Shown: positions 24,421-54,110 of the stretch, piece by piece
How positions within the stretch are numbered: position 1 is the first letter of the stretch
Layout of the letters: every line of letters starts with the position of its first letter
Source: Persephonella sp. KM09-Lau-8
Lineage (GTDB): Bacteria; Aquificota; Aquificia; Aquificales; Hydrogenothermaceae
Assembly (NCBI RefSeq): GCF_000703085.1
Contig: NZ_JNLL01000001.1
Location: forward strand, 992,001 to 1,056,000
Length of the DNA stretch: 64,000 nucleotides
Direction of reading: 5' to 3'
Made by a program: the position numbers and the translations under genes
The notes under the pieces: model-generated
The model's database searches: none
What the model was told of the DNA's origin: nothing
The model's input: only the letters and a program-made list of their open reading frames with translations

Positions 24421-24422
24421 GC

Positions 24423-24449
24423 TAAACATTTATGTGAAAATACCGAACA
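24423..24449 (+). promoter_or_regulatory. Possible sigma-28 promoter (plus) for the glycosyltransferase-flagellin run
   Basis: TAAA (24423-24426), exactly 15 bases, then ACCGAACA (24442-24449), which keeps the CCGA core of GCCGATAA. It is about 37 bp before the ATG at 24486. Confidence 0.35.
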
Positions 24450-24485: not shown

Positions 24486-26393
24486 ATGGAAGAAACTACA
24501 TATTCTCAAATAGAAGCTTTACTATCTATATTAGGTTCTGTAAAGCAAAAATTTCTTTTTCCTGAACTTCGAGGTTGGGCTGCTTCCCCTGATTTTATAA
24601 AAGAATTATTTAAAGTCTTGATGGAAAAAAGTTCCATAAAAAAGGAAATTACAATTTTAGAATTAGGTTCAGGTGCATCTACATACTTTATATCAAATCT
24701 GATAAAAAACCATAATATAAATGCTAAATTTATATCAGTAGACCATAGTATAGATTTTCTTAAGAAAACTCAAAAATACATATCTTTAGAAGGATTAGAT
24801 AATTATGTAAAACTGATATTTGCTCCATTTAAATACCACGTTATTAATAATACAGAGTGGATATGGTATGACTCAGACAAGATAATTTCTGCTCTTTCAG
24901 ATTCTAAAATTGATATTTTAGTTATAGATGGACCCCCTTATGATACACAACGTATGGCAAGATTTCCAGCTATTCCTTTATTAAAGGATTTCTTTTCTAA
25001 AGAATGCACCGTTCTTTTAGATGATTATTACAGAGAGGATGAACAAAAAGCTGTTGAATTATGGATGAAAGAACTTGAAAATGCAACCTTAGAAACAATA
25101 CATACCGAGAAAGGAACAGCTAAAATAGAACTAAATGATTTCAAATATAAACCTTTGATTTCTATATGTACTCCTACATATAATAGAGCTCATTTTTTAA
25201 AGGAGAGTATTAATTCTGCAATTAGCCAGAACTACAAAAATATTGAAATTGTAATAGTTGATGACGGTTCTACAGACAATACTGAAGAGGTTGTAAAAGA
25301 AATAATGAATAAATCCCAAATACCTATAAAATACCATAAAAACCCTGAAAATAAAGGAAGACCTTATAGCAGAAATATGTGTATAAAACTTACCAGCGGT
25401 GAATATATCTTATGGCTAGATGATGATGATTTACTAAAGCCAGATGCAGTCTCTTCTTATGTTCAAGTCTTGAATCAATTTGATGATTTGGATGTTCTTT
25501 ATTCTAATTTGGAAACTTTTGGAAGTGAAAATTTTCTATATAATTATAATGATTTCTACAAAGCAAACAGATTTCTATTAAGAACACAAATAGAAAATAA
25601 CTCTATTCCCAACCCTGGAACAATGGTTAGAAAAGAAATTTACAATCAATATGGATTTTTTAATGAGGAATTTATTAGAGCTCAGGATTATGAATTCTGG
25701 GTAAGAATAGCAAAATATGCAAAATTTAAGCATACAAATAAAGCTCTTGTTAAATATAGAATTCATGAGGAAAATGTATCTGTAGGTTTACTTAAAATAG
25801 ATACCTCTTTTGAATCTGTAATAAAAAGGAGATTCTTAAAATATTATTCTCTTAAGGAAATATTTGGAAATTTACCAGATCATATAGCAATATCAGATAT
25901 TTCTATATTCTTAGATAAAGTCTTTGATTTATATAATGCAATTTTATACAGTTATTTATCTTATAAAATGGGCAATAAAGATTCTCTAAAACAGGCTTTT
26001 TTACTTTCAATGAAGGGTAACTACAAAGAAACAGTAGAGGTTATAAAAAGAGAGTTACAAGAAGTTTTTCCTAAAAAACAGATTAAAAATCTATTAAAAA
26101 TATATAAGCTTTTTAAACTTGAACAACTATCCAAAATAGATAATTTTTATGAAAACAGTTTTCAAAATATTTATAAAAAGGGTCTTAAAAAATTGGAAAC
26201 TAACAAAGAAGAAGCGAAATCTTTCTTAAGAATCTGTTTAATAATGAATCCTATGGATGAAAATCTGTTCAACCTGTATTCAAATAATTTTGGAGAAGAA
26301 GAGGCCAAAGCTATTGTAAATAGAATTATAACTCCGCAAAACAAGTATGAAACTGAATATTTCCCAGAGTTTAAATCTTTATTAAAGTTATAG
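24486..26393 (+). CDS. Fused class I methyltransferase and GT2 glycosyltransferase
   Basis: A 635-residue two-domain protein. Residues 50-215 form a SAM-binding Rossmann-like domain with ILELGSGAST (58-66) and DILVIDGPPYD (143-153). Residues 222-460 are a GT-A family 2 glycosyltransferase starting ISICTPTYNRA, with the VDDGSTD nucleotide loop (258-264) and LDDDD donor/metal site (311-315). The remaining about 170 residues are helical. A methyltransferase-glycosyltransferase fusion suits synthesis of a methylated glycan. It precedes a second GT2 gene (9-bp gap) and flagellin, so O-glycosylation of flagellin is the likely task (inferred). Confidence 0.75.
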   Translation: MEETTYSQIEALLSILGSVKQKFLFPELRGWAASPDFIKELFKVLMEKSSIKKEITILELGSGASTYFISNLIKNHNINAKFISVDHSIDFLKKTQKYISLEGLDNYVKLIFAPFKYHVINNTEWIWYDSDKIISALSDSKIDILVIDGPPYDTQRMARFPAIPLLKDFFSKECTVLLDDYYREDEQKAVELWMKELENATLETIHTEKGTAKIELNDFKYKPLISICTPTYNRAHFLKESINSAISQNYKNIEIVIVDDGSTDNTEEVVKEIMNKSQIPIKYHKNPENKGRPYSRNMCIKLTSGEYILWLDDDDLLKPDAVSSYVQVLNQFDDLDVLYSNLETFGSENFLYNYNDFYKANRFLLRTQIENNSIPNPGTMVRKEIYNQYGFFNEEFIRAQDYEFWVRIAKYAKFKHTNKALVKYRIHEENVSVGLLKIDTSFESVIKRRFLKYYSLKEIFGNLPDHIAISDISIFLDKVFDLYNAILYSYLSYKMGNKDSLKQAFLLSMKGNYKETVEVIKRELQEVFPKKQIKNLLKIYKLFKLEQLSKIDNFYENSFQNIYKKGLKKLETNKEEAKSFLRICLIMNPMDENLFNLYSNNFGEEEAKAIVNRIITPQNKYETEYFPEFKSLLKL

Positions 26394-26402
26394 GGATTAA
26401 AT

Positions 26403-27926
26403 ATGAAAATCTCTGCATGCATTATAGCTAAAAATGAAGAAAAAAATCTCCCAAGACTGCTTGAGAGTCTAAAAGGTAAATTTGATGAGATTATTCTTGT
26501 TGATACAGGTTCAACAGATAAAACTATAGAGATAGCAAAACAACATGGCTGCAAAGTTTATCATAGACAGTGGCAAGGATTTGCAGATGCACGAAACTAT
26601 GCAGTTTCAAAAGCATCAGGAGAATGGATATGGCATTTTGATGCGGATTTTGAATTAGAAGAGGAAGAGTGGAAAAAGGCATTGTATTATCTAAATAACA
26701 TCCCAGAAAATATTCTGGCTGTAACCATACTTATTAAAAATATTGGTGATAACATAGAAAGTGCAGGAATTTCCTCCAATACCTTTATACATCGAAATAA
26801 TCCTAAAGTAAAATGGGTAGGGAAAGTCCATGAAACTTTAAATGTTTCCGAAAGTTATGGAATACCCGTTTTTGTGAAGCATTACGGTTTTCAAGACTCT
26901 ACAGTTTTAAGAAAAAAAGCTTTGCGTAATATAAAGTTATTAAGACAGGAACTAAAAGAATTAGACAAAAATTCCAAACAATACCATATAAAACTTTTTT
27001 ATTTAGTACAATCTTACGCAGTTCTAACTTCTTATGATGCCAAATATACTAAACAAGTTATAAAATACGCCACACAATTCATAAACAACATAGTAGAAGA
27101 AACCAAATTTTTTGATATTTATGTATATGTTTATTTGATAGAAGCCCTTTTAAAGGAAAAAAGGTTTAAAGAAGCTCTGGAAAAAATAAAAGAAGCACAA
27201 CAAATATTCCCAGATTATTTAGATATAATATTTCTTGAAGGAAAAGTATATTTAGAATTGGAAGAATATAATGAAGCGGTAGAAGCTTTTCTTAAGTTTA
27301 TAACCTTAACAGATCAACACCTTAAAAATCCTTTTGTGTTATCAAAAGGACATGCCTTTGTTTCTGACAAACTATTAAATCTTCCTTATTACATTGAAAA
27401 TATAATTCCTGAGGCCGTAATAAAATCTGACCAATATACCTTAGAAAAACTAATAAACTTATGGAAAGAAAAAAAGGGAGAATATTTAGGAATTCTGATA
27501 ATAACCACAGCTAAGAAACTAAACCAAGATATCTCTAAATTTTTAAATAAATTTATAAACCTATATAACAACTCTTCAAAAGCCTTATCTTTTGCTTTAG
27601 TGTATGCAGAACATATGGGACACATTAATACGAAAAGTAAAATTATTAAGAGACTACAAAAAGTAGATCCCCAAAATAGTTTACTATGTTATTTTTCAGG
27701 CAAAGAAGCCTTAGAAAAAGGAAAATACGAAACTGCTTTGAAAGATTTAACAATATATTTTCAAAAAACCAAAAATCTTAATATAATTCCCGATATAAGA
27801 AAATGCTTGATAAATCTTAATCTAAAGGAAGAACTTAAAAGATTCGATGAAGAAATTAATAATCTAACTAAAAAATTAAAAACCACCTCCGATAATAAAA
27901 CTCAACAAAAACAAAATCGGAGGTAA
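26403..27926 (+). CDS. GT2 glycosyltransferase with TPR tail upstream of flagellin
   Basis: A 507-residue protein. Residues 1-220 are a WaaE/SunS-like GT2 domain starting ISACIIAKNEE, with LVDTGSTD (32-39) and the HFDADFE donor site (78-84). Residues 225-500 form tetratricopeptide-like helical repeats (KEALEKIKEAQQIFPDY, NEAVEAFLKFITL). Bacterial enzymes of this layout use the TPR part to bind a protein acceptor. Its stop is six bases before the flagellin ATG, so flagellin or another filament protein is the natural candidate acceptor. The sigma-28 promoter and the ribosome site of flagellin are both inside its final codons. Confidence 0.78.
   Translation: MKISACIIAKNEEKNLPRLLESLKGKFDEIILVDTGSTDKTIEIAKQHGCKVYHRQWQGFADARNYAVSKASGEWIWHFDADFELEEEEWKKALYYLNNIPENILAVTILIKNIGDNIESAGISSNTFIHRNNPKVKWVGKVHETLNVSESYGIPVFVKHYGFQDSTVLRKKALRNIKLLRQELKELDKNSKQYHIKLFYLVQSYAVLTSYDAKYTKQVIKYATQFINNIVEETKFFDIYVYVYLIEALLKEKRFKEALEKIKEAQQIFPDYLDIIFLEGKVYLELEEYNEAVEAFLKFITLTDQHLKNPFVLSKGHAFVSDKLLNLPYYIENIIPEAVIKSDQYTLEKLINLWKEKKGEYLGILIITTAKKLNQDISKFLNKFINLYNNSSKALSFALVYAEHMGHINTKSKIIKRLQKVDPQNSLLCYFSGKEALEKGKYETALKDLTIYFQKTKNLNIIPDIRKCLINLNLKEELKRFDEEINNLTKKLKTTSDNKTQQKQNRR
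27869..27895 (+). promoter_or_regulatory. sigma-28 promoter of flagellin
   Basis: TAAA (27869-27872), exactly 15 bases, then TCCGATAA (27888-27895), seven of eight to the consensus GCCGATAA. It lies inside the coding end of the upstream glycosyltransferase gene, and +1 is expected near 27902. Confidence 0.8.
27885..27924 (+). promoter_or_regulatory. Inverted repeat that masks the flagellin Shine-Dalgarno in long mRNA
   Basis: ACCTCCGAT (27885-27893) is perfectly complementary to ATCGGAGGT (27916-27924), with a 22-base loop. The right arm contains the flagellin ribosome site GGAGGT. The left arm overlaps the sigma-28 -10 box and would be absent from sigma-28 transcripts. Confidence 0.65.
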
Positions 27927-27932
27927 TCAGTC

Positions 27933-28793
27933 ATGGCACTGAGAATTAACTACAACTTCCAGGCAGACTTCACACATGCCAACCTATTAAGAACTGAATA
28001 TAACATGAACAAATCCCTTGAAAGGTTGGCTACAGGTTACAGAATTAACAGAGCTGCAGACGACGCAGCAGGTCTCTACATTGCAGACCAGCTCAAAACC
28101 TATGTGGTATCTCTTGAACAGGGAACAAGAAATGCTGCCGACGGTGTAAGTATTGCTCAAATTGCTCAAGGTTCCCTTGCTGAAGTTTACAATATTCTAA
28201 ATGACATTAAAGCCAAAACAATTCAGGCTGCCAACGATTCAAATGATGACACAGCAAGACAACAAATCCAGCAAGATATTAATAGTCTTGTTGACACTAT
28301 TAGTAAAATCTTCAAAGATACAGAGTTTAATGGGGTTAATCTATTCTCTTCTGGAACAGTAGTAAGTTTTACAATACACTATGGAGGAAGAACAAATCAA
28401 GAACTCAAAATCACAGGAGATAAGGCAGGAGCAACAGCAGGAACTTCTGCTACCCGTGCATCCTCTGTTGTAATAGGAGATACAACCTATACTATAGACG
28501 TTACTTCTCAAACAAAAGCTAATGCTTCCGTATCCACTGTAGATGCTCTTATTAAAGCTGTCGACAACCTTGCTGCCAAGTTCGGTTCTTATCAAATTGA
28601 GCTTGAAAAAATTATCAATAACAACAACACACAAAGGGTTAACGTTTCTGAAGCTGAGTCTCGTATTAGAAATGTTGACTTCGCTAAAGAAATGTCCGAA
28701 TTCACAAGAAACCAAATACTCATGCAATCTGGTACAGCTATGCTTGCACAGGCAAATCAGCTCCCACAACTTGTTTTACAGCTTCTCAGATAA
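27933..28793 (+). CDS. fliC: Flagellin
   Basis: A short 286-residue flagellin. The N-terminal D0/D1 helices run from MALRINYNFQ through RLATGYRINRAADDAAGLYIADQL (about 1-135). A compact, Thr/Ser/Ala-rich variable centre spans about 140-205. The C-terminal D1/D0 helix ends RNQILMQSGTAMLAQANQLPQLVLQLLR. The termini that drive filament assembly, axial export and TLR-type packing are conserved. The centre has Ser/Thr clusters and NAS/NNT sites that could carry glycans. GGAGGT lies eight bases before the ATG, and a sigma-28 promoter lies upstream. It is followed by a terminator and by flaG-fliD-fliS. Confidence 0.96.
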   Translation: MALRINYNFQADFTHANLLRTEYNMNKSLERLATGYRINRAADDAAGLYIADQLKTYVVSLEQGTRNAADGVSIAQIAQGSLAEVYNILNDIKAKTIQAANDSNDDTARQQIQQDINSLVDTISKIFKDTEFNGVNLFSSGTVVSFTIHYGGRTNQELKITGDKAGATAGTSATRASSVVIGDTTYTIDVTSQTKANASVSTVDALIKAVDNLAAKFGSYQIELEKIINNNNTQRVNVSEAESRIRNVDFAKEMSEFTRNQILMQSGTAMLAQANQLPQLVLQLLR

Positions 28794-28888: not shown

Positions 28889-29266
28889 ATGGATATCAAA
28901 AATGTTAATAATGTTATGGATAAGTCCCTTGTGGAAGGTCAGACTTTAGATCGAACTCGAACAAAAGAGATAAACAATTCTCCCGCTGAACAAATTGCCA
29001 AACAACAACAAGAAGAACTAAAGAATAGTTTACAAAAACTAGATAAAAAGCAACTAGAAGACTTATTCAAAGATATTAAAGAGAAATTTGATTACATGAA
29101 CAAATATCTAAAAATAGAAATAGATAAAGATCTGCATGAACCTGTAATAAAGATAATGGATAAGCAAACAAACAAAGTCATAAGACAGATTCCCCCTGAA
29201 TACGTCCTTGAACTTGCAAAAAGAATAGATGAGCTGGTAGGGCTCTTAATCAAAAAAGAGGTTTAA
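28889..29266 (+). CDS. flaG: FlaG-family flagellar protein
   Basis: 125 residues. The last 75 carry the FlaG signature: a helical DYMNKYLKIEIDKDLHEPVIKIMDK segment followed by TNKVIRQIPPEYVLELAKRI. The first 45 residues are Gln/Asn/Lys-rich and probably unstructured. FlaG proteins modulate filament length in polar flagellates. It lies between flagellin and fliD, the standard position, and GGGGA precedes the ATG. A four-base gap to fliD indicates co-translation. Confidence 0.92.
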   Translation: MDIKNVNNVMDKSLVEGQTLDRTRTKEINNSPAEQIAKQQQEELKNSLQKLDKKQLEDLFKDIKEKFDYMNKYLKIEIDKDLHEPVIKIMDKQTNKVIRQIPPEYVLELAKRIDELVGLLIKKEV

Positions 29267-32180: not shown

Positions 32181-32207
32181 TTATCGGTAATTATAATTTA
32201 TTTTTTA
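32181..32207 (-). promoter_or_regulatory. sigma-28 promoter of flgL
   Basis: On the minus strand TAAA (complement of 32204-32207), exactly 15 bases, then ACCGATAA (complement of 32181-32188), seven of eight to consensus. It sits in the 66-bp gap between flgK and flgL. Confidence 0.75.
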
Positions 32208-53832: not shown

Positions 53833-53917
53833 AATTACCCTCCTATATATTTTTATATTTTTTATATTTAATAATAAGAAAATAACTATAAACTTTTATG
53901 GAATAAATCATATTACC

Positions 53918-53944
53918 TAAAGTTTAACTGTGAAAAACCGATAA
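53918..53944 (+). promoter_or_regulatory. sigma-28 promoter of a 44-residue gene
   Basis: TAAAGTTT at 53918-53925, with TAAA and exactly 15 bases before ACCGATAA (53937-53944). The -35 is a full match and the -10 seven of eight. Expected +1 is near 53951, 25 bases before the ATG at 53976. Confidence 0.75.
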
Positions 53945-53975
53945 ATTACTATAAATAAAAGCTAAGAGAAAAAAG

Positions 53976-54110
53976 ATGTTTACCGAAAGCAAAACAGAAC
54001 TTATGATATGGTTGTTCTTATTTATTACGCTGATTACTATTTTTTTACTGGATAATACTTTCTCTTCTCAATTGGAAACTCCACAGGTAAGTATCACAAT
54101 AAATTTTTAG
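53976..54110 (+). CDS. Small single-pass membrane protein (44 aa) under a sigma-28 promoter
   Basis: Forty-four residues: a polar start (MFTESKTEL), one hydrophobic helix (about 10-25, MIWLFLFITLITIFLL) and a short polar tail ending QVSITINF. A modest AAGAGA lies before the ATG. Coding status rests mainly on the near-perfect sigma-28 promoter, correctly spaced upstream; the leader contains no other start. I know no family for it. Position beside a CZB protein and the promoter class suggest a motility-linked membrane peptide. It converges with the 55-residue gene, overlapping by four bases. Confidence 0.55.
   Translation: MFTESKTELMIWLFLFITLITIFLLDNTFSSQLETPQVSITINF

Follow-up and report, generated by a model that had tools for sequence, protein, structure and literature searches.

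The transposase leaders of IS10 and IS50 are shielded from impinging transcription, and flagellin mRNA in B. subtilis is under the control of CsrA and FliW. The IS200 leader, likewise, has a stem-loop that covers the transposase ribosome site in transcripts arriving from outside (PMC3196728), and in Campylobacter CsrA and FliW block flagellin after transcription, at the ribosome site of its mRNA (PMC4894983). The systems closest to the locus described here are phage T4 gene e (lysozyme), soc, 49, and I-TevI, whose long early transcripts fold over the ribosome site (PMC3014915, PMC2988022). The T4 late promoters sit in the DNA of the 5' strand of the fold, and the late transcripts, made without that strand, are translated; synthesis from the long form of gene e is reportedly cut about 100-fold (PMC3014915, PMC2988022).

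We analyzed a window of 64,000 nucleotides from Persephonella sp. KM09-Lau-8, in which a flagellin gene (27933..28793, plus strand; Pfam PF00669 and PF00700) lies directly behind glycosyltransferase genes. The first gene of the likely upstream operon encodes a methyltransferase and a GT2 glycosyltransferase (24486..26393, plus strand), and the second encodes a glycosyltransferase with GT2 and TPR parts (26403..27926, plus strand). FlaG (28889..29266, plus strand; Pfam PF03646) is located 3' of flagellin and is followed by ORFs resembling further flagellar genes. The genome encodes both FliA and FlgM. Upstream of flagellin we found a sigma-28 promoter with exact spacing, consisting of a -35 element TAAAAAAT (27869-27876, plus strand; CTAAA from 27868), an N11 spacer, and a -10 element TCCGATAA (27888-27895, plus strand). 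The same CTAAA-N17-CGATAA style is kept 5' of most flagellin genes examined. Judging from the position of the -10 box, the sigma-28 transcript should start near 27902, about 7 nt past the box.

The sequence ACCTCCGAT (27885-27893, plus strand) spans the final three bases of the spacer plus six of the -10 element's eight, and it is the perfect complement of ATCGGAGGT (27916-27924, plus strand). The latter contains the flagellin Shine-Dalgarno sequence GGAGG (27919-27923), nine bases 5' of the ATG at 27933. This complementarity, and its overlap with the sigma-28 -10 element, had been pointed out in an initial annotation of this DNA and is confirmed by the sequence. Together the two arms give nine Watson-Crick pairs around a predicted loop of 22 nt (27894-27915, plus strand), and the left arm, an anti-Shine-Dalgarno strand, would be carried only by read-through RNA. 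No Rfam family was detected in the window at the gathering threshold.

In folding predictions for a long RNA of 100 nt, the hairpin had an energy of -17.7 kcal/mol (z=-4.25), and none of 200 shuffled sequences was equally stable. At 37 C, the model energies for opening the six bases GGAGGU were 12.7-13.3 kcal/mol in the long RNA and 1.4-4.3 in an RNA beginning at 27902; at 70 C they were 5.2-5.8 and 0.7-1.0, respectively. When the nine left-arm bases alone were shuffled, the opening cost at 70 C dropped to a mean of 1.15 (sd 0.61). The locus had a helix score of 23 (scored as L051, which is identical in sequence here), a value reached by one of 73 control genes with GGAGG sites that were drawn from the fetched loci and the window (median 9.5, 95th percentile 15.8). 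Within the short mRNA, the folding model paired GGAGGU more weakly with ACUUCC, early in the flagellin coding region (27919-27960), at 37 C; most of this pairing was melted at 70 C. The initial annotation had proposed that the long RNA hides the ribosome site and that the short RNA leaves it free. The predictions agree with this, even at 70 C, but in this genome coupled translation, rather than full silence, is to be expected of the long RNA (see below).

We consider a translational insulator built into the sigma-28 promoter to be the best explanation for the arms, with a probability of roughly two in three. The spacer and -10 box of the flagellin promoter would encode the anti-Shine-Dalgarno strand, and RNA reading through from a codirectional upstream gene would fold that strand onto the flagellin ribosome site. 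On such RNA flagellin would be translated poorly, or only by ribosomes ending the upstream gene. Transcripts initiated by sigma-28, about 7 nt past the -10 box, would be made without the strand and could be translated freely. The benefit, we infer, would be that no flagellin appears until export and glycosylation are ready. The arms are real, conserved, and probably functional, and a single sequence plausibly serves as both promoter and anti-Shine-Dalgarno arm.

We asked how the pairing behaves in relatives, using flagellin loci collected from genome contigs and 136 Aquificota genomes. This gave 94 distinct upstream regions, some of them labelled Campylobacterota, and 63 after clustering. The sigma-28 promoter was nearly universal among the loci collected. 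Helices joining the promoter region to the ribosome site recurred with varied sequence and register and reached 13 bp in L010, 12 in L031 and L098, 11 in L055, L005, and L017, and 9 in L026, L072, L066, and L115, with wobble in some of these helices. The registers differ, as illustrated by ATGGCCTACCTCC/GGAGGTAGGCCAT in L010, TTTTTGACCTCC/GGAGGTCAAAAG in L031, and CCTTCTTCTTCC/GGAAGAAGGAGG in L098, the last two including wobble pairs.

We then compared the energy of each left arm paired with its own ribosome arm to its energy with permuted partners from other loci. Across the 63 clustered loci the mean was -11.03 kcal/mol for own partners and -9.94 for permuted ones (z=-4.8), and none of 100,000 permutations reached the own value. 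By family, the own value was reached in 14 of 20000 permutations for Hydrogenothermaceae, 3 of 20000 for Desulfurobacteriaceae, and 654 of 20000 for the Campylobacterota-labelled loci; there was no significance in Aquificaceae and others. As controls, left arms that were reversed or shifted gave no significance in Hydrogenothermaceae or Desulfurobacteriaceae. Two designs for these two families were meant to limit shared ancestry: with one locus per genus (15 genera) the median p-value was 0.001 at 37 C, and permutation within genera gave 512 of 20000 at 37 C and 197 of 20000 at 70 C. By these sequence permutations, chance is excluded as the source of the pairing for the locus set as a whole. 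Covariation column by column in one fixed register was weak, which is expected if the register drifts, and as a result the support from conservation rests on the energy test. The initial annotation had looked to co-variation of the arms in related genomes as a check on its reading, and by the swap tests the arms do co-vary.

Two groups of loci in this collection were peculiar in other respects. Ten loci (L007, L009, L011-L015, L023, L024, and L030) come from MAGs, most of them labelled Campylobacterales or Nitratiruptor, and encode flagellins at most 75% identical to that of the window behind a like style of promoter; either horizontal transfer or mis-binning would account for them. In the Aquificaceae loci L142, L143, L146, and L147, the leader has a small palindrome, CCTTATAAGG, that overlaps the Shine-Dalgarno sequence and lies inside the sigma-28 transcript.

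The strongest rival explanation is a coupling device, which we regard as a tentative possibility that falls short of probable. Here ribosomes finishing the glycosyltransferase would unfold the hairpin and reinitiate 6 nt further on, giving a low flagellin output proportional to glycosyltransferase, and the hairpin would block only independent initiation. The glycosyltransferase ORF (26403-27926) runs in frame across both arms, a feature absent from the initial annotation. It ends in a TAA (27924-27926) that shares bases with the end of the right arm and with the ribosome site, leaving 6 nt to the flagellin ATG. The end of this reading frame is shared by L002 and L051, and the upstream ORFs of L017, L026, and L108 end at most 3 nt from the flagellin start or past it. 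Against this, most relatives retain the helix with an upstream stop codon placed in the loop or ahead of the left arm, positions from which only weak coupling would be expected. Because the ORF crosses both arms and stops in the ribosome site, ribosomes on it should open the hairpin in Persephonella sp. KM09-Lau-8, a point against the insulator, and the long RNA there is likely to yield some flagellin at a low level through coupling.

The pairing could also reflect no more than the separate constraints on the promoter and the ribosome site. The sequence CCTCCGATAA would then be simply a strong version of the sigma-28 -10 region for flagellin, one that any GGAGG ribosome site complements, and the hairpin would be without a role. 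Under this explanation TCCGATAA is kept for promoter reasons and the TCC/GGA complementarity comes free, and the weak covariation in fixed-register columns is in keeping with it. So are the loci that have the promoter and not the arms: genus g9 (L056, L058, L062, and L063), which has the promoter and a codirectional upstream gene without the pairing, and many Aquificaceae. In the initial annotation, relatives with the promoter and without the complementarity were to count against its reading. Such relatives do occur, in g9 and in most Aquificaceae loci, but the latter are mostly divergent from their upstream neighbor and little read-through is expected there.

Against separate constraints, the pairing reaches beyond both elements and varies between species in a matched way. 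The sequence CCTC stood directly 5' of CGAT in 9 of 14 flagellin promoters and in 0 of 23 other putative sigma-28-like promoters with the same spacing, among the matches listed in a family scan that covered loci outside g9. The flgL promoter in the window is likewise without CCTC before CGAT. The orientation of the upstream gene, called in relatives from ORF length only, also made a difference. In Aquificaceae-type loci, CCTCC was found in 8 of the 15 whose upstream gene is codirectional and abutting, and in 0 of the 27 whose upstream gene is divergent (p=5e-5, a value that ignores relatedness). Over all families, the helix was stronger in codirectional (49) than in divergent (21) clustered loci (p=5e-4 for helix score), and the opening difference at 70 C was also larger (p=2e-4, same loci). 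The sole divergent Desulfurobacteriaceae locus, L110, is without the helix. One exception is g9, codirectional yet without the helix; another concerns five Persephonella-like loci (L027, L046, L047, L066, and L069), in which the pairing persists despite a divergent upstream gene about 300 nt away; an alignment of the divergent Persephonella loci, L066 excluded, gave no clear conserved extra promoter 5' of them. These contrasts are consistent with read-through as the cause of selection for the arms, and we consider it unlikely that promoter and ribosome-site constraints are all there is.

A palindrome that acts at the DNA level under a protein, for example a repressor over the promoter, is very improbable. 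The inverted repeat does overlap the -10 box, and in an RNA-versus-DNA test by the asymmetry of GU and AC pairs, swap tests read on the antisense strand were about as strong, such that wobble pairs do not discriminate between RNA and DNA. Nevertheless, the sequence of the repeat changes between species and its complementarity stays, unlike a fixed operator, and the strong helices take in the ribosome site. Least likely is a transcription terminator or processing site of the upstream operon, as the stable hairpin at the end of the upstream ORF might suggest: the 22-nt loop is too long, no T run follows, and a scan between the glycosyltransferase and flagellin genes found no terminator, so an intrinsic terminator, with its short-loop GC-rich hairpin and T run, was rejected. 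A CsrA-regulated leader was rejected as well, because the genome has no PF02599 match in a search that was positive in the controls E. coli, B. subtilis, and T. maritima.

If the translational insulator is the correct reading, the next consideration is what flagellin is insulated from. The upstream genes of relatives are often of a glycosylation type (GT2, Maf/MptE-like), but UbiD, a dienelactone-hydrolase-family protein, and a tRNA m1G methyltransferase occur in this position as well. A device that insulates flagellin from whatever is transcribed upstream therefore fits better than a glycosyltransferase timer, and the earlier suggestion that flagellin is kept off while the glycosyltransferases are made is too narrow. 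The temporal switch of the initial annotation can be hypothesized, given the predicted masking, the co-varying arms, and the presence of FliA and FlgM, but flagellin on the long messages here is probably translated by coupling and not shut off. In addition, a degenerate sigma-28-like match, CTAAA-N17-CGAACA, is located 5' of the glycosyltransferase operon (24422-24449). If this match is real, the operon may itself partly depend on sigma-28, and thus the long and short transcripts may not be separated in time.

Two further sigma-28-like promoters were observed in the window. One (32181-32207, minus strand) lies between flgK-like and flgL-like ORFs, and its leader is without an anti-Shine-Dalgarno arm despite a codirectional upstream gene. 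The other (CTAAAGTTT ... ACCGATAA, within 53917-54110) precedes a 44-codon ORF from 53976, possibly an unannotated late flagellar small protein.

The fold at the flagellin locus is probably functional and, on this analysis, would extend a known mechanism of phage type to bacteria in a new form. No earlier report of such masking for flagellin or sigma-28 was found in a literature search that lay mostly outside subscription papers. The odds appear even that this is an old and general Aquificota device, in which the flagellin sigma-28 -10 region is co-selected as an anti-Shine-Dalgarno strand wherever a gene precedes, and which amounts to a T4-type early/late switch in cellular chromosomes working at 65-75 C. 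If true, the site of transcription initiation would by itself enforce the flagellar hierarchy at translation, with no protein or small RNA involved, and the placement of flagellin directly behind housekeeping or glycosylation genes would be explained. The combination of a -10 element and an anti-Shine-Dalgarno strand would also provide a signature with which to look for further cases among other late genes that sit in operons.

The transposase leaders resemble the flagellin locus in masking by a stem-loop; they differ in protecting a mobile element and in having no alternative-sigma promoter in the arm. The CsrA/FliW systems need CsrA, for which this genome has no match, and act on the sigma-28 transcript itself. 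The likeness to T4 gene e and I-TevI goes further. At flagellin, a 5' strand complementary to the ribosome site is present in the long transcript only, with the short start deduced from the promoter; the stage-specific promoter is nested in the DNA for that masking strand, the sigma-28 -10 element overlapping the left arm; and the pairing is kept in relatives despite sequence change, some lineages excepted. Unlike T4, where phage genes and a phage late sigma factor are involved, the gene here is a chromosomal flagellin, the sigma factor is sigma-28, the hosts are thermophiles, and in Persephonella sp. KM09-Lau-8 an ORF is translated through the hairpin. If the reading holds, the phage T4 principle would be shown in conserved bacterial chromosomal genes.
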